DNA of 64,000 bases, from contig NC_015496.1 in the NCBI RefSeq assembly GCF_000212355.1, positions 1,612,001 to 1,676,000 on the forward strand, read 5' to 3'. The notes under the pieces were generated by a model. That model was not told the origin of the DNA and searched no databases. It saw only the letters and a list, made by a program, of their open reading frames with translations. Below, piece by piece: positions 57,349 to 62,793 of this stretch; position 1 is the first letter of the stretch, and every line of letters begins with the position of its first letter. The translations under genes and the position numbers were made by a program. Origin of the DNA: Dokdonia sp. 4H-3-7-5 (GTDB lineage: Bacteria > Bacteroidota > Bacteroidia > Flavobacteriales > Flavobacteriaceae).

Positions 57349-58224
57349 TATTTTTTGAGGTCCTTCCAGTAGCACGCGATTTACATGCAGGTGGCCTTCT
57401 TCTGTGGTAGTAATATGCCATTTTATAAGAGAGATAGCGCCATTTTCTATTTCTAAGCCTGTGATACTACGCGGATGAACACAACTACCATCATTAAAAA
57501 AAGCAATATCTCCCGGTTCTGGAAATCGAGGTCTATGTGTATGCCCTACTATGGTGAGTAGATTATTGTTTTCTGTAATCCACTTTTTAATACGTCGCTC
57601 TACTTTTATGAGCTCTTTGTAATTTTTTGCAGGACTCGTAGGATCAGAGATGCCAAATATTTGAAGTGGTTTCCATAAGATTCTAACGAGAAACCTATTA
57701 AAGCGCCACCCATGATAATTGAACCAGTCGGCTTGATGACCATGGCATAAAAAGAGTTCTTGAGCACTTTCCTGATGTTTTAATATCAATGCCTCATGAT
57801 ACTCTAGATTTTTAAACAAAATCTCTTCTCTGCCATCCTTAGGATCAAAATAAGTGCTCAAATGTTTTTGAACGTAGTTCTTATCGCGATATACCATATC
57901 GTGATTTCCCCAGATGAGGTGAAGTCGTTTTTCAAAGTGAAACTTCTGCAGTAATGTATAGACATTTTTATGGGCACGTAAGATGCTTTCAAAGGAGCTG
58001 TTTTCCCATAGCTCATCTCCATCCCCTAGCTCGCAATAAGTAAATCCTTCTTTATAATAATGTTTTAACGCGTGGTAATAGATATTCTCATTTCGCGCAA
58101 AATCATCGGCAAAGCTTTTGTCTCCGCGGTGACAGTCGGAAAAGAAAACTAGTTTATCGGCATCAGAAAATGGTATTTCCTTTGCTGCTTTGTAAGCTCT
58201 GTCTAAACGCTGTCTTGTATTCAC
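57328..58224 (-). CDS. Calcineurin-like metallophosphoesterase
   Basis: A 298-residue cytosolic phosphoesterase with the five metal motifs: FFSDCHRGD, GDGDELWE, WGNHD, CHGHQAD and VGHTHRPRF. The substrate is unknown; UDP-diacylglucosamine hydrolases (LpxH-like) and nucleotidases share this layout. The final codons lie within the terminator hairpin. This is the last core gene before the island boundary. Confidence 0.9.
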   Translation of the reverse strand: MNTRQRLDRAYKAAKEIPFSDADKLVFFSDCHRGDKSFADDFARNENIYYHALKHYYKEGFTYCELGDGDELWENSSFESILRAHKNVYTLLQKFHFEKRLHLIWGNHDMVYRDKNYVQKHLSTYFDPKDGREEILFKNLEYHEALILKHQESAQELFLCHGHQADWFNYHGWRFNRFLVRILWKPLQIFGISDPTSPAKNYKELIKVERRIKKWITENNNLLTIVGHTHRPRFPEPGDIAFFNDGSCVHPRSITGLEIENGAISLIKWHITTTEEGHLHVNRVLLEGPQKIRDYKTS

Positions 58225-58276
58225 AGGTTAAATATCTTAAAAAAGACTGAGATTAATAGGGTTGAGAGGAGTACGC

Positions 58277-58286
58277 TTTCGCGAAA
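58277..58286. repeat. Dispersed palindrome, intergenic, last copy in the window
   Basis: An exact core within ACGCTTTCGCGAAAGCGT, 26 bp left of the island's left repeat. No exact copy is found from here to the right end. Confidence 0.9.
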
Positions 58287-58311
58287 GCGTAAAATAAATA
58301 CGTCCTATCTA

Positions 58312-58329
58312 TTTTATGTCGGGTAGAGA
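58312..58329. repeat. Left attachment-type repeat (displaced tRNA-Pro 3' end)
   Basis: TTTTATGTCGGGTAGAGA, an 18-bp exact direct repeat of 62575-62592, where it forms the last 11 bases of tRNA-Pro(GGG) plus 7 bases of flank. The stray tRNA end far from any tRNA marks the outer edge of an inserted element. Confidence 0.82.
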
Positions 58330-58374
58330 TGGGTATCTCACTTTAAACAAATTGAGACACGTCAATTTACTTGT

Positions 58375-58411
58375 AAAAAAACTCGACAAACTATGAAGCT
58401 TACCGAGTTTT
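58375..58411 (-). terminator. Terminator of the ubiquitin-like operon
   Basis: The minus strand reads AAAACTCG ... CGAGTTTTTTT with an 18-nt loop. It lies 15 bp past the DUF6527 gene stop codon. Confidence 0.65.
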
Positions 58412-58425
58412 ATTTGTAATCTATT

Positions 58426-58785
58426 CTATTCAGCCCAAACAATCAGGCCACTCCTCAACCAAAAATGACTTTCACAATTCTTAGTCCTCCAAATCGAAGG
58501 GTAAATCGAAGGTTCTTCTTCATTTGTTGTCAATTTCCAACAAGGGTTGACATCATCCATTAGATTTAATGTAATTACATCTTCACATCCACAAGGGCAC
58601 TGTAATTTTGCATACCAGTAATCTTTTGACTTAACATTACATTCCACATAAATGATATTTTTATCAATAAACTCTGGAAACTCACTCGTATAATGCACAT
58701 TAAATCCTCTTTTTGAAGTGACTGTAGCCTCTTTACTTAAAAGTTTCGATAGCCATGATATGAATTTCTTAAATAATTGCCTCAT
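58426..58785 (-). CDS. DUF6527 family protein of the ubiquitin-like operon
   Basis: A 119-residue protein. A basic, hydrophobic N-terminus (MRQLFKKFISWLSKLLSK) may be a membrane-associating helix. The DUF6527 core follows: KLQCPCGCEDVITLNL (Cys-rich, possible metal site), a central DDVNPCWKL, and the conserved SIYPSIWRTKNCESHFWLRSGLIVW. Families of this kind accompany bacterial E1/E2/Ubl operons. As I recall, one such member (BubE) is proposed to be a peptidase for Ubl maturation or removal; that name is not assigned here. The start overlaps the E1 gene by 17 bp. Confidence 0.8.
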   Translation of the reverse strand: MRQLFKKFISWLSKLLSKEATVTSKRGFNVHYTSEFPEFIDKNIIYVECNVKSKDYWYAKLQCPCGCEDVITLNLMDDVNPCWKLTTNEEEPSIYPSIWRTKNCESHFWLRSGLIVWAE

Positions 58786-60142
58786 TCGTTTTGTTTTGAG
58801 AATTACCTAAACCTATATTGCTTAAATGCCAATCATCTTTAGTAGCGCATATAGGATACGAGCTTAAATCCCAATCGGTAAGATTGACAACAGTATGTCT
58901 GTAACGAGAGTTATCATTATAACGAAACATATGGATTCTACCTAACATTTCATTTACCGCAAGGGAAGAGTAAACACTATTTACACTAATCACAGCTGGA
59001 CTACTCACTTCAATATTTTCAAAATATACTCGCCTATTCTCATATTCATCTCTAGCTATTCTCTTCATAACCTCTGCACTAAGCATATCCCAAGAATACA
59101 CACCTCTCTCTTCGAGGGTTTGATAGCCAGGAGTCAAGTAATGTATATTCCCAATTATAGAGTCAACATTTCCTTTACCGTCCGCAACAAGTTTGACACC
59201 AACATCGATAACAGGTACAAGATATGCAGTTGAAATAAGGTTCAGATAATGCCTTCCTTCAATAGAATCAACACAGCCAAATATGACATCACAAGTACTT
59301 AACTCTTCAAGTGCTTTTTCACTTTCTTGAAAAACACAAGGGTATGTAATAACGTGAGTTCCTATATTTACTTCAGTTATATGCCTTTGTAAGACATCTA
59401 CTTTTAATTTCTCATCTACTGCATCTGTCTTGCGAGAAGATATTATTCTATTTAAGTTCTCTTGTCCTACAGTGTCAGGGTCAGCGAGTACTATTGTACC
59501 AGCTCCCAATCTCATTAGCATCTCCGCAATAGGACTACCAGTTCCAGAGACTCCTATTATTCCGATCTTCATATCCCTAAGAATACGTGTCGTATGATTT
59601 CCAAATGTTTGAGAATTCCTTTCAAATGCTAGAGGAGTTTTACTGTTTTGAGTTTCCCAGTAAAACTTTATGTCATTACCAACAATTGTAAAGCGTTTTA
59701 CAGAAGAAAAATCTAAGTCACTAGATATAATTCGTCCTTTTAATGACCCGTCAGGGTACATAATTACGCTAGCTTGAGGCGTATCAGAATCTAACCACCC
59801 AAAAACTGATTCAAAAAAATCTCTATCTGATATATCATCAAAGGATGAAAAATTAGAATCTTGAATGAAATGTGAGTGAATTTTAATTATACTTAAGTTC
59901 TTGGAAAGGGCTTTTTCTAATACACCTTCTACATCAATTGTTTTCCAATTAACTCTATCTTGTGTTCGCACACAATTATCATAAGGCAGTAAGCAGGTTT
60001 CGTGAGCAAGCAAATAATTAATTCCTGATTGATCCGACTTTCCACAAAGCACAAATGCAACAGCTTCCAAACCATCTCCGTTGTGAAGATGGTTCTTTAG
60101 CTCTTGATGCATTTTTTGTGTCATTTTTATATGCATCTCCAT
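58769..60142 (-). CDS. JAMM peptidase-E1 (ThiF) fusion of a ubiquitin-like system
   Basis: A 457-residue two-domain protein. Residues ~5-140 are a JAB/MPN domain with a complete JAMM zinc motif: Glu26, His89-x-His91, Ser99 and Asp102, fitting HxH-x7-S-xx-D, so it should be an active deconjugating or processing peptidase. Residues ~180-420 are a ThiF/E1 adenylation domain: GVSGTGS (197-203), DPDTVGQENLNR with the ATP-binding Asp and Arg, and CDVIFGCVDS. The usual C-x-x-C zinc pairs are missing, and where related E1 proteins have cysteine after a PG motif this one reads TPGYQTLEE. It therefore adenylates a Ubl but may transfer it without a normal cysteine thioester. Confidence 0.88.
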   Translation of the reverse strand: MEMHIKMTQKMHQELKNHLHNGDGLEAVAFVLCGKSDQSGINYLLAHETCLLPYDNCVRTQDRVNWKTIDVEGVLEKALSKNLSIIKIHSHFIQDSNFSSFDDISDRDFFESVFGWLDSDTPQASVIMYPDGSLKGRIISSDLDFSSVKRFTIVGNDIKFYWETQNSKTPLAFERNSQTFGNHTTRILRDMKIGIIGVSGTGSPIAEMLMRLGAGTIVLADPDTVGQENLNRIISSRKTDAVDEKLKVDVLQRHITEVNIGTHVITYPCVFQESEKALEELSTCDVIFGCVDSIEGRHYLNLISTAYLVPVIDVGVKLVADGKGNVDSIIGNIHYLTPGYQTLEERGVYSWDMLSAEVMKRIARDEYENRRVYFENIEVSSPAVISVNSVYSSLAVNEMLGRIHMFRYNDNSRYRHTVVNLTDWDLSSYPICATKDDWHLSNIGLGNSQNKTNEAII

Positions 60143-60148
60143 AATGGC

Positions 60149-61114
60149 TTAACGTTTTTTGAATTCTGCCTTAAGGCAGCTAATCATTAAATCAATATGT
60201 GATTCCACATCGTCGTTTTGGGGATCCCACTTATTATTTGCGGTTCTATGTCGTGACCATTGCTGATATGTTTTACCGTCAATAATACGATTACTCAATG
60301 CTCCAATGTGCTTGCCATCGGCACGCGCCAATGGCGGATTAAAATAAATCATATCTAGCTGGGCTTTTGGGTAATGTGGGGGTATCATTATTATCGCTTC
60401 AGCCTCTTTAACGTTATAACCTTCAGGTATATCAAAATTTGTGACCCTTAACCAGTTTAAGTTCTGGTAATTTAAAAGAGCGACCTCAAATTTAAATCCT
60501 TTTAAAAAAGAAATATCCGATTCAGTCAAAACCCCATTAGTAGTTGTTCCAGTTAGGTATCCTTCAGTACAATCAAGAGCTTCAACAACAAACCTCTCTA
60601 CACCACATTTTGTAAGGTCGATAATTTGACCATCCTTAAGAATAGGCTTACCGTTTTTAGTAAACATTCTCACTCTATGAGTTTTAGGGTCTTTATCTAC
60701 AAGAGCTAAAATCTCCTCTCGGGATATTTCTTCCTGACGAACAGAATACTTTTCTCTGTTAATCTTTAGAACATACTCGTAAGTAATGAAGGGTTCGGTG
60801 CCAGCGCAATAGCATTCTTGTATATCTATACTAGCTTGCTCATAAGGACGTATTATGAATCTCTCTATACCACATTCAGTTAGGTCTATTTTTACATTTG
60901 GACCAATCAAATCTCGACCCTTAGAAGTTACCATTCTTATGAAATGAGTATCCTTATTGGTTCCAAAAAGTTCGTGTAAGTCGTCACCTTCTATTATAGG
61001 CTCCTTGGTCTTAAATTCGTCATTGTTTATTTCGAAAGCATATTCGAAAGCTATTGCTGGTTTTATGCCTTTACGAAAGCAGTCTTTTAAATTAGTTATG
61101 TTAATCTTCTTCAT
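60149..61114 (-). CDS. Tandem ubiquitin-like domains fused to an E2-like domain
   Basis: A 321-residue polyprotein, first gene of the operon. Two related ~85-residue multi-ubiquitin-type repeats (residues ~10-91 and ~100-181) share the pattern (F/Y)EYxxxIN ... THxxRM(V/F)T(S/K)G ... IDLTxCG(I/V)ERF. Residues ~198-321 match bacterial E2 family E: IPEGY, IIMIPPHYPKAQLDMIYF, WSRHR (286-290) and NDDVESHIDLMI. The only Cys in the E2 part is Cys313 near the end, so there is no canonical E2 cysteine. Neither Ubl ends in Gly-Gly. Fusion in one chain suggests cleavage, conjugation in cis, or use of the whole chain as the modifier. Confidence 0.85.
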   Translation of the reverse strand: MKKINITNLKDCFRKGIKPAIAFEYAFEINNDEFKTKEPIIEGDDLHELFGTNKDTHFIRMVTSKGRDLIGPNVKIDLTECGIERFIIRPYEQASIDIQECYCAGTEPFITYEYVLKINREKYSVRQEEISREEILALVDKDPKTHRVRMFTKNGKPILKDGQIIDLTKCGVERFVVEALDCTEGYLTGTTTNGVLTESDISFLKGFKFEVALLNYQNLNWLRVTNFDIPEGYNVKEAEAIIMIPPHYPKAQLDMIYFNPPLARADGKHIGALSNRIIDGKTYQQWSRHRTANNKWDPQNDDVESHIDLMISCLKAEFKKR

Positions 61115-61328
61115 AATGTAATATTTATTTGTGTTGCACTCCTTTTAAGTTTAAAAGAGTGGTATTCTTAAAAAATTCACTTTAGAACTCACTCTATCGC
61201 GATCGCTTCTTTGGAGTTCTTGGCCTACAATAAGGCAGTAGCTTATAAGCTACGATGGAAGCAGTTGGTTAAATAAGGCGGACTAATTCATAGTTAATTG
61301 GTTATAAAACCAACTAGAAAGACAACAC

Positions 61329-61359
61329 TTGTGCAATTAAAGAAGAATATGTACTTTTG
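61329..61359 (+). promoter_or_regulatory. Promoter of the candidate small RNA
   Basis: TTG (61329-61331), a 20-nt spacer and TACTTTTG (61352-61359) match the Bacteroidetes -33/-7 consensus. No start codon occurs between here and the terminator at 61423. Confidence 0.6.
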
Positions 61360-61365
61360 TAGAAC

Positions 61366-61452
61366 GATAAAACAAAAGAATTCTTTTGGGATCCGACCCC
61401 CTAGAATTCATCAACATTGAACAAATCAGGTAGTCTTTCTATCTGATTTTTT
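61366..61452 (+). ncRNA. Candidate ~87-nt small RNA inside the island
   Basis: It is bounded by a consensus promoter and a Rho-independent terminator, with no ATG or GTG start between. Internal structure: a perfect 16-bp palindrome CAAAAGAATTCTTTTG (61373-61388), a GGGATCCGACCCC hairpin-like segment just after it, and the terminator stem AAATCAGGTAG/CTATCTGATTT. It matches no RNA family I know. The 5' end is estimated from the promoter. Confidence 0.42.
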
Positions 61453-61453
61453 C
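61423..61453 (+). terminator. Terminator of the candidate small RNA
   Basis: An 11-bp stem (one G-U pair) with a 5-nt loop, followed by TTTTTTC. It lies upstream of the XRE gene and so cannot belong to it. Confidence 0.72.
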
Positions 61454-61546
61454 TATTTATAAAAGATTGATTTTCTTTAAACCAATCATTACTACAAATA
61501 TACGAAAAAATATTGGATATAAACAAATTGATAAATTTTTTTAAAA

Positions 61547-61563
61547 TGTTTACGACATAAACA
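61547..61563. promoter_or_regulatory. Candidate XRE repressor operator
   Basis: TGTTTA-cgaca-TAAACA: 6-bp inverted arms with a 5-nt spacer. It lies about ten bases before the -7-like TATATTTA of the XRE/ImmA operon, the usual place for an autoregulatory operator. Confidence 0.5.
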
Positions 61564-61604
61564 TAATATATATTATATTTACTTGCTTAGTTTAAAGTAT
61601 ACCA

Positions 61605-61952
61605 ATGGATAACGATACTTTCTTATATGAGTATTTAGGCGGCAACATCAAGAATTTAAGAAAATCGAGAAAATTAAGTCAGGAAGAATTGGCTTCTTTT
61701 ATATCATTAAGTAGATCCTCTGTTGCTAATATTGAATCTGGATATCACCAGCCCTCAATTCACGTAATTTACCAAATAGCTGTTGTTCTTGAATGTAAAA
61801 TAACTGAATTACTACCTTCTATAGATAGTTATAAAAAATCTAAAGTTGAAATCGATGAAAAGTTTTCAGAAATCTTAGATTCCTTACCAAACAAAATGAG
61901 TAAAAAAAACTTAACGTTTCTCAAATCTATAATTACAGATGACGAAGAATAA
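61605..61952 (+). CDS. XRE-family helix-turn-helix repressor
   Basis: A 115-residue DNA-binding protein. The helix-turn-helix spans residues ~12-65 (KNLRKSRKLSQEELASFISLSRSSVANIESG ... ITELLP). The C-terminal tail is charged and may dimerise. Its last 14 bp overlap the ImmA-like gene, so the two are co-translated. In phages and integrative elements such pairs act as a repressor and its inactivating peptidase. Here it is divergent from the ubiquitin-like operon and is the best candidate for its regulator. Confidence 0.92.
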   Translation: MDNDTFLYEYLGGNIKNLRKSRKLSQEELASFISLSRSSVANIESGYHQPSIHVIYQIAVVLECKITELLPSIDSYKKSKVEIDEKFSEILDSLPNKMSKKNLTFLKSIITDDEE

Positions 61953-62475
61953 TTGGTTTACGGATAGTCAAAATAAAGCTTTTCAAATTCTTAAAGAATT
62001 AAATTTGCTTAAGACACCTATTGATGTATTTGAAGTAGCGAGTCGTCTTGGAATATCTATTGTTGAACAAGATTTAGATGATGATGTTTCTGGCTTTCTA
62101 GTAAGGAAAGACAATAAAAATATTATCGGGCTAAATAGAAATCAACACGTTGTTAGACAGAGGTTTACGGTTTCTCACGAAATCGGGCATTTTAGCCTCC
62201 ACGTCGAAAAGCCACTTTTTGTAGACTTTTTTAAGGGCTCAAAATTATATAGGAGCACCACTCAGCCTAGTGATAGACAAATGGAAAAAGAGGCAAATGC
62301 TTTTGCGGCTTCTCTATTAATGCCGAAACCTCTTCTTAAAAAAGAGTTAGGTAAACTTTCTGAGGATATATCTTATGAAAAGAAATTAAAGACTCTAAGC
62401 GATCTTTTTAGAGTAAGTCAACAAGCTATGGATTATAGATTGAAATCTCTGGGATATTACGATTATGGTTTTTAA
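61939..62475 (+). CDS. ImmA/IrrE family metallopeptidase
   Basis: A 178-residue zinc peptidase. The catalytic motif HEIGHF (HExxH, residues ~75-80) is intact, preceded by VVRQRFTVS and followed by the family's KEANAFAASLLMPKPLL. The C-terminus resembles ImmA (LSDLFRVSQQAMDYRLKSLGY). It likely cleaves or relieves the partner XRE repressor in response to stress or infection. It starts inside the XRE gene and ends before a strong terminator next to the island's right repeat. Confidence 0.92.
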   Translation: MTKNNWFTDSQNKAFQILKELNLLKTPIDVFEVASRLGISIVEQDLDDDVSGFLVRKDNKNIIGLNRNQHVVRQRFTVSHEIGHFSLHVEKPLFVDFFKGSKLYRSTTQPSDRQMEKEANAFAASLLMPKPLLKKELGKLSEDISYEKKLKTLSDLFRVSQQAMDYRLKSLGYYDYGF

Positions 62476-62539
62476 ACCAGTAGCAGTTTGTAATTGTAAA
62501 ATTTCACCTTACAGAAATCTTACATATTTTTTATTCAAG

Positions 62540-62573
62540 AATCTCAACTAATTAAAAAAAATTAGTTGAGATT
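62540..62573 (+). terminator. Terminator of the XRE/ImmA operon
   Basis: AATCTCAACTAATT ... AATTAGTTGAGATT: a 14-bp perfect stem with a 6-nt A-loop, followed by a T-run that runs into the right repeat. Confidence 0.88.
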
Positions 62574-62574
62574 T

Positions 62575-62592
62575 TTTTATGTCGGGTAGAGA
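62575..62592. repeat. Right attachment-type repeat (tRNA-Pro 3' end)
   Basis: An 18-bp exact repeat of 58312-58329. Bases 62582-62592 are the 3' end of tRNA-Pro(GGG), so the tRNA is intact after insertion. Confidence 0.82.
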
Positions 62593-62656
62593 GGATTCGA
62601 ACCTCCGATCTCTGGTCCCCCAGACCAGCACTTTAACCGGACTAAGCTACTACCCG
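62582..62656 (-). tRNA. tRNA-Pro (anticodon GGG), island insertion site
   Basis: A 75-nt tRNA. The acceptor stem CGGGTAG pairs with CTACCCG, the discriminator is A, the D arm contains GCTTAGTCCGGTTAAAGTGC, the anticodon stem CTGGT/ACCAG frames the loop CTGGGGG (anticodon GGG), and the T arm contains GGTTCGAATCC. CCA is not encoded. The island begins directly at its 3' end. Confidence 0.97.
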
Positions 62657-62793
62657 TTTTTATGCGCGTAAATATAATAAAGCGTAATCATTAGGGAAAT
62701 AGCTAGGTTCAAAAAAGATCTCAATGCATATCTTATTAATTTTTTTGTACCTTAAAGTGTTGAAAAATAAATTATTAACTAAACCCAAATATT

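Follow-up and report, generated by a model that had tools for sequence, protein, structure and literature searches.

Operons for ubiquitin-like (Ubl) conjugation in bacteria were described by Iyer, Burroughs and Aravind (2006; PMC1779556), whose section 14 reports polyUbl proteins that in some species are fused to an E2-like domain lacking Cys, in operons that also carry a JAB-E1 fusion and a metal-binding protein with the signature C-x3-C-x35-38-H-x2-C. Row 6e of its Table 1 is this operon type, and a review repeats the polyUbl/E2-like and JAB-E1 description (PMC11354881). For Bub (bacterial ubiquitination-like) operons, a 2026 study associates 219 of 544 with CapW or with CapH and CapP, switches that respond to DNA damage (PMC13373217, EMBO J 2026). 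Here we analyzed a 64,000-nucleotide stretch of the Dokdonia sp. 4H-3-7-5 genome (NC_015496.1, positions 1,612,001 to 1,676,000; hereafter the window, with positions counted from its first letter) and found that 58426-61114 is a complete Bub operon. The operon itself is of an already described kind; a compact tRNA insert without an integrase gene and, above all, a conserved small RNA candidate set it apart.

The window operon has in common with type 6e the fusion of polyUbl to a Cys-less E2-like domain, the JAB-E1 protein and the metal-binding protein. Its DUF6527 signature, however, reads C63-x3-C67-x36-C104-x2-H107, and Bacteroidota are absent from row 6e as far as the row was seen. The solved Bub system of Citrobacter (9ea4, 9ea8, 9eae, 9eav) has the same coding parts, E2 fold, WSRH motif and Gly at the Ubl/E2 boundary. 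The window fusion contains two Ubl domains whereas that of a C. koseri plasmid contains three, and a CapH-CapP-like pair lies upstream where the plasmid has an ATP-binding and a DNA-binding gene; the small RNA candidate and the tRNA insert likewise distinguish the window from Citrobacter Bub. The Bil system is defined by an E2 with a catalytic Cys. The window E2 has no invariant Cys and carries an invariant W-S-R-H instead, which places it outside Bil.

The Bub operon

The three genes (Table 1) abut or overlap on the minus strand as the first-pass annotation had proposed, with 6 bases between bubAB and bubCD and an overlap of 17 bases between bubCD and the bubE-like gene in the list of open reading frames (ORFs). 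Against Pfam, the bubAB product matched Multi_ubiq (PF14452; 1e-13) in two stretches and Prok-E2_E (1.4e-26), the bubCD product matched ThiF (9e-28) and the third product matched DUF6527 (3.3e-22); Prok-JAB stayed below its cut-off. Residues 6-422 of the bubCD product align with solved Citrobacter BubCD (9ea4; E=1e-61, phmmer), and the E2 part resembles solved Citrobacter BubB in both sequence (3.4e-17) and fold (9eae_C; TM 0.88 of target, rmsd 1.1, Foldseek). On these matches, the predicted complete ubiquitin-like conjugation operon is correct and belongs to the Bub kind. A match of BubAB to FAIM1 (3.9e-4, under the cut-off, in 1 of 24 members) was taken as chance.

Table 1. Features in and around the Bub operon, in window coordinates.
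Feature	Position	Strand	Basis
Left copy of 18-bp direct repeat TTTTATGTCGGGTAGAGA, attachment-site-like	58312..58329	+	
Integrated element: insert of 4,263 bp, measured from repeat to repeat, and the second repeat copy	58312..62592		
bubE-like gene, DUF6527 protein, 119 aa	58426..58785	-	ORF list, Pfam, alignment, model
bubCD, JAMM-E1 fusion, 457 aa, JAMM and E1 residues intact	58769..60142	-	ORF list, Pfam, phmmer, alignment
bubAB, Ubl1-Ubl2-E2 fusion, 321 aa (residues: Ubl1 ~25-90; Ubl2 ~113-185; junction 182-193, with Gly185 of TEG; E2 197-314, with W286-S287-R288-H289)	60149..61114	-	ORF list, Pfam, alignment, model
Candidate small-RNA gene	61330..61452	+	promoter-like TTG-N20-TACTTTTG, hairpin, intrinsic terminator
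Parts of candidate: promoter-like TACTTTTG; putative RNA (~90 nt) with imperfect hairpin; terminator stem	61352-61359; ~61360-61452; 61423-61449	+	
Inverted repeat ATGTTTACGACATAAACAT upstream of capH, possible operator	61546..61564	not assigned	
capH-like helix-turn-helix repressor gene, 115 aa	61605..61952	+	ORF list, Pfam, PADLOC
capP-like M78 metallopeptidase gene, 178 aa, HEIGH at residue 80	61939..62475	+	ORF list, Pfam, PADLOC
Right copy of TTTTATGTCGGGTAGAGA, overlapping 3' end of tRNA-Pro(GGG)	62575..62592	+	
tRNA-Pro(GGG), insertion target, intact	62581..62656	-	

The motifs that the first-pass annotation read from the letters also hold up in alignments. The JAMM residues Glu26, His89, His91, Ser99 and Asp102 are kept in 22, 22, 22, 21 and 21 of 22 aligned BubCD sequences (window included), and the E1 motif is intact, with G197, G200, G202, D221, N229, R232, K247 and D292 kept in 21 or 22. 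The two Ubl repeats correspond to the two Multi_ubiq stretches and to two Ubl-like domains in the predicted structure of BubAB, which also has one E2-like domain (mean predicted local distance difference test score, pLDDT, 85). The WSRHR stretch occupies residues 286-290, and its W, S, R and H are invariant in 20 sequences of one alignment and in all 24 fusions of another; no Cys in the E2 domain is invariant. Ser287 may carry the Ubl, in agreement with the oxyester intermediates through which Bub conjugation reportedly proceeds (Ye and colleagues are said to have described this in 2026). In BubE, which we take to be the DUF6527 protein, C63, C65, C67, S97, C104, S106 and H107 are invariant in 24 aligned sequences, and in a smaller alignment of 18 C65 and S106 are kept in 16 and H107 in 17. 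As a separate observation, the JAMM motif of the window is HSHF where HSHP is usual (residue 92 is Pro in 19 of 22 sequences), and the closest relative (locus L029) also has HSHF.

The annotation had suggested that the fused arrangement might be undescribed. It is not new: it appears in Iyer et al. (2006) and is clearly common among related loci. We collected 101 such loci, window not counted, from plasmid regions (9), genome stretches (12) and a set fetched with BubCD (80, namely 79 of the best 80 from genomes and 1 from viral contigs), and scored their composition by profile scans with models built here. Ubl and E2 share one ORF in 59 loci, lie apart in 35 and are incomplete in 7; fusion, BubCD and DUF6527/BubE occur together in 52, including another Bacteroidota record, a Pontibacter plasmid. 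Because the loci were chosen by similarity, these counts are not population frequencies. More broadly, a BubAB relative was present in 87 of 72,556 plasmid records, and Prok-E2_E exceeded the Pfam cut-off in 6 of 299 genomes of the family and 9 of 395 of the phylum, each count including the Dokdonia genome itself. A single-sequence BubAB scan of genome contigs recovered no relative; the genome loci came from an alignment-based BubCD scan of those contigs.

The glycine junction of the Ubl-E2 fusion

Between Ubl2 and E2, Gly185 of a TEG motif is invariant in all 24 aligned fusions, and residues 182-193, which contain it, are the sole segment of at least three residues with pLDDT under 50 in the predicted BubAB structure. 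The 35 loci that encode Ubl and E2 apart provide a natural comparison: their Ubl ORFs end exactly at TEG in 18 cases, have Gly as last residue in 24 and have TEG within the last eight residues in 25, some with a short tail beyond TEG and a few with a QQG-type or other end. In Citrobacter, G230 of the C. koseri fusion aligns with the Gly at which the solved BubA chains 9ea8_B and 9d59_A terminate, and the alignment of the solved BubB chain 9eav_D starts at residue 229 of that fusion. Since Gly185 is invariant and located where stand-alone Ubls end, the fusion is probably a precursor, and processing at Gly185 is the best reading of these data. No TEG follows Ubl1, and a di-Ubl would therefore be the expected product.

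A small RNA candidate divergent from the operon

The 490-bp gap between bubAB and capH contains a candidate small-RNA gene. Its TTG-N20-TAnnTTTG element, which we take to be a Bacteroidota-type promoter, is followed by an imperfect hairpin and by the sole terminator-like hairpin found in 58200-62700; because shuffles gave 2.1 on average, the terminator hairpin alone carries no weight. The closest relative, L029 (58% BubCD identity, another genus), has the same promoter-hairpin-terminator layout, and none of 200 shuffles folds as well as either RNA (z -4.5 and -5.0). The plus strand of the gap also holds one ORF of 23 codons, with its start inside the promoter; a short-peptide reading was set aside.

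In nine related loci (one of them a weak case) the candidate recurs with unchanged position and orientation. A model built from the window and L029 RNAs (R1) found clear matches only to these two in 31 sources, and over the 80 BubCD-fetched loci gave 8 matches at E <= 0.27 (L074, L131, L099, L086, L068, L076, L082 and L125), all upstream of bub and on the strand pointing away from it; two further matches up to E 1 (0.67 and 0.88) break this pattern. One locus missed by R1, L078, was added by eye. A second model (R2), trained on nine loci and run over 74 sources, returned those nine, then L125 (0.0045) and L030 (0.011), both again upstream of bub and on the strand away from it, with L068 weak (0.23). 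A scan for promoter plus terminator covered 49 of 102 loci: 31 taken to be Bacteroidota, the window among them, and 18 others. It found a unit directed away from bub in 11 of the 31 and 0 of the 18, and one directed towards bub in none of the 49; Bacteroidota loci L033, L034, L036 and L139, among others, lay outside the scan. Shuffle controls (40 per locus) gave 1 match for the window, 2 for L080 and 0 elsewhere.

A sequence-only alignment of nine RNAs, omitting the divergent L068 and keeping both of the near-identical L099 and L131, showed changes on both sides in 11 of 20 pairs, with every measure exceeding 500 of 500 shuffles and a covariation score of 0.386 against at most 0.147 for slid versions. 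This result is favored by the structure used, part of which came from the alignment itself and part from inspection of L099 by eye. Folding z-scores of the nine RNAs ranged from -1.9 to -5.4. When 41 chosen rows were placed on a BubCD tree, the ten loci bearing the RNA fell into two clades, which takes 2 changes (mean of 9.1 in shuffles, none of 500 as low). L083, L113 and L125, each with a similar unit or match, were scored as lacking the RNA; because these three lie elsewhere on the tree, the link of the RNA to one lineage is not strict. L083 (Runella) and L113 (Segatella) have promoter-terminator units pointing away from bub outside both clades, perhaps diverged versions of the RNA.

The candidate RNA accompanying related Bub operons is apparently new to description. 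No Rfam family matched the candidate at gathering score in the window or in any of 11 scanned loci (L029 not among them), and a literature search on CapH, CapP or Bub together with small RNAs, which did not cover the two main Bub papers, gave no paper on such an RNA among the matches listed. A weak hit to Rfam BTnc049 (E 0.011, 27.7 of 81.9 bits) on the opposite strand was rejected. A regulatory role is our best guess for the RNA. That a group of Bacteroidota Bub operons possesses a dedicated RNA of about 90-100 nt, co-inherited with the operon, divergent from it and working with or controlling the Ubl machinery, is a proposal we make tentatively, at somewhat less than even confidence.

Two other explanations of this signal have to be weighed. 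The main rival, which we consider unlikely, is that it represents an attenuated capH leader terminating prematurely and not a separate RNA. In favor of a leader, RNA and capH share a strand, about 120-260 nt separate the end of the terminator from the downstream capH or its counterpart in the ten loci, and six of these, window included, have no further TAnnTTTG between terminator and capH; yet such an element is present in the other four (L029, L068, L082 and L086), and the 5' hairpin of the RNA covaries by itself. Alternatively, our models may merely have picked up a generic Bacteroidota promoter-terminator pattern. Some of their matches do look generic: in 149 family genomes R1 found, besides the window, one terminator-like place (G025, no tRNA), and R2, run with strict filters over overlapping draws of 395 genomes from the phylum and 385 from the class, found the window, two tRNA genes (G644 and G616) and a place resembling a plain terminator (G965, likewise no tRNA). 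No RNA copy outside Bub loci, and no new independent copy, was recovered in the genomes scanned with R1 or R2. A generic pattern would nevertheless fit poorly with the uniform position and strand of all 8 R1 matches at E <= 0.27, with promoter-terminator pairs directed away from bub in 11 loci and towards bub in none of the 31, and with covariation beyond that of every shuffle, and we regard it as improbable.

The CapH-CapP-like pair

Divergent from bub, an HTH (helix-turn-helix) gene and an M78 gene are best read as CapH and CapP. The M78 product contains HExxH and matches the PADLOC capP model at 6.6e-35, and CapP-like M78 genes occur in the flanks of 43 of the 101 loci (phmmer). The known CapH-CapP module likewise has an HTH gene next to an M78 gene, both divergent from the operon; in the window, by contrast, the candidate RNA gene separates the pair from the operon. 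No palindrome shared across bub-capH gaps emerged as a common CapH operator. In L029, HTH and M78 domains are found in a single 378-aa protein (L029:7486-8622), not in separate CapH and CapP.

An integrated element at tRNA-Pro(GGG)

The "tRNA island" of the first-pass annotation can now be delimited exactly, by 18-bp repeats, the 3' end of tRNA-Pro(GGG) and empty sites in congeners. Between the repeats lie bubE, bubCD, bubAB, the RNA candidate, capH and capP, with no integrase gene among the ORFs of the 4,263-bp element. A 17-base part of TTTTATGTCGGGTAGAGA occurs only twice in the whole genome, both times at the element ends. Among 11 congener stretches, three (L050, L051 and L052) align on both sides of a single site with nothing between; the full 18-mer is kept only in L052, and L050 and L051 keep its GTCGGGTAGAGA end. 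In two others (L053 and L054) the tRNA is present and the insert absent. The insert is also missing from L058 and L060, where the tRNA or its start is present, along with other differences or a contig end. The remaining four (L055, L056, L057 and L059) have no tRNA within the stretch and were not counted for the empty site; one of them, L055 (G206), has about 5 kb between ferredoxin and metallophosphoesterase genes, at an insertion point different from the tRNA site. BubCD at E <= 1e-20 was found in 0 of 17 other congener genomes, or 1 of 18 in the genus with our own.

Cis-mobilizable elements (CIMEs) have attachment-site-like repeats and no integrase or transfer genes. The window element is CIME-like, with such repeats and no integrase or transfer gene seen among its ORFs; it is very small for a CIME. 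A 17-nt inverted repeat, 94% complementary (AAGAATCTCAACTAATT / AATTAGTTGAGATTTTT; 62537-62576), abuts the right repeat copy and is a candidate terminator or recombinase-site arm.

A model for the locus and its possible function

Three findings go beyond what the first-pass annotation contained: the pair resembling CapH and CapP, the exact limits of the element together with its empty site, and the candidate small RNA. Drawing on the genes, motifs and homologies, the junction, the insertion with its empty sites and the conservation and covariation of the RNA, we infer a set of activities and think it likely that a Bub operon on a small integrated element is repressed by CapH until DNA damage activates CapP. 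CapH would repress its own promoter and bub. DNA damage (single-stranded DNA for CapHP elsewhere) would activate CapP, which would cut CapH and release transcription. The Ubl-Ubl-E2 precursor would then be cut after Gly185, by BubE or the JAMM domain, into a free E2 and a di-Ubl ending in TEG. BubCD, through its E1 half, would adenylate the Ubl C-terminus and hand the Ubl to the E2, whose site, lacking Cys and bearing the invariant Ser287-Arg-His289, may pass it to target proteins, from which JAMM or BubE could remove it. The divergent ~90-nt RNA would be a regular part of this Bub group, most likely regulatory. The element itself would have entered by site-specific insertion at the tRNA-Pro(GGG) 3' end, using an integrase that either came from elsewhere or has since been lost.

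Several results speak against parts of this model. The Pfam JAB match of the bubCD product is under the cut-off (E 0.04, 14.2 of 25 bits), although the similarity to BubCD at 1e-61 makes up for this. The Ubl end is not always exact, since 11 of the 35 separate Ubl ORFs lack a terminal Gly. For BubE, a predicted model of pLDDT 87 had no PDB match at E <= 0.001 in a fold search (best 1.5) and a sequence search gave no convincing match; a protease fold is therefore not supported. The capH match (PADLOC, 5.4e-10) is unspecific, with HTH_VI (2.4e-12) and PDC-M69A (2.2e-10) scoring better, and it is the position of the gene that fits. An R1 match is absent in four other Bub-bearing family genomes (G083, G217, G207 and G131), and pairing in cis between the RNA and bub mRNA was rejected, with a mean of -32.8 over nine loci against -32.4 (sd 3.7) for swapped loci. 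Finally, the 2026 study states that protection against phage has not been shown for Bub operons (PMC13373217).

The fate of the fusion and the purpose of the tagging both admit other explanations. BubAB could stay uncut, its E2-tethered tandem Ubls forming an oligomer or scaffold, and multi-ubiquitin protein filaments do exist among solved relatives (9d59 and 9d5b). The conserved, low-confidence TEG junction argues against this, as do the 35 of 101 loci that encode Ubl and E2 apart, over half of whose Ubls (18 of 35) end exactly at TEG, and we hold an uncut fusion to be quite doubtful. As to purpose, the first-pass annotation offered a defence role as conjecture, and we keep it at that strength. 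Tagging could instead serve a general DNA-damage or stress response, a serious possibility that we place not far below even. The discussion of the 2026 study leaves room for an immune role of Bub or for one in more global responses to stress (PMC13373217), and phage collections hold few BubCD relatives (1 partial match among 50,697 phage records; 1 locus in viral contigs). Defence cargo is suggested, on the other hand, by the sporadic distribution (1 of 18 genus genomes, our own included), by carriage on plasmids (87 records) and in a tRNA insert, and by the Abi genes that adjoin one plasmid copy. The viral-contig locus, L147 (IMG/VR contig IMGVR_UViG_2684623039_000002), carries a complete Bub operon and an M78 gene on a 44-kb predicted viral contig.

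Bub structures have been solved, yet according to PMC13373217 protection against phage has not been shown. At 4.3 kb, and with a switch, an RNA candidate and congeners that have the precise empty site, the natural cassette described here could easily be moved and tested, and the conserved Gly at the junction opens the precursor model to direct testing. If it is transcribed, the small RNA would be an unexpected regulatory or working part of a bacterial ubiquitin-like pathway, and a dedicated RNA, if the proposal is true, would constitute an RNA component within a ubiquitin-type pathway of bacteria.

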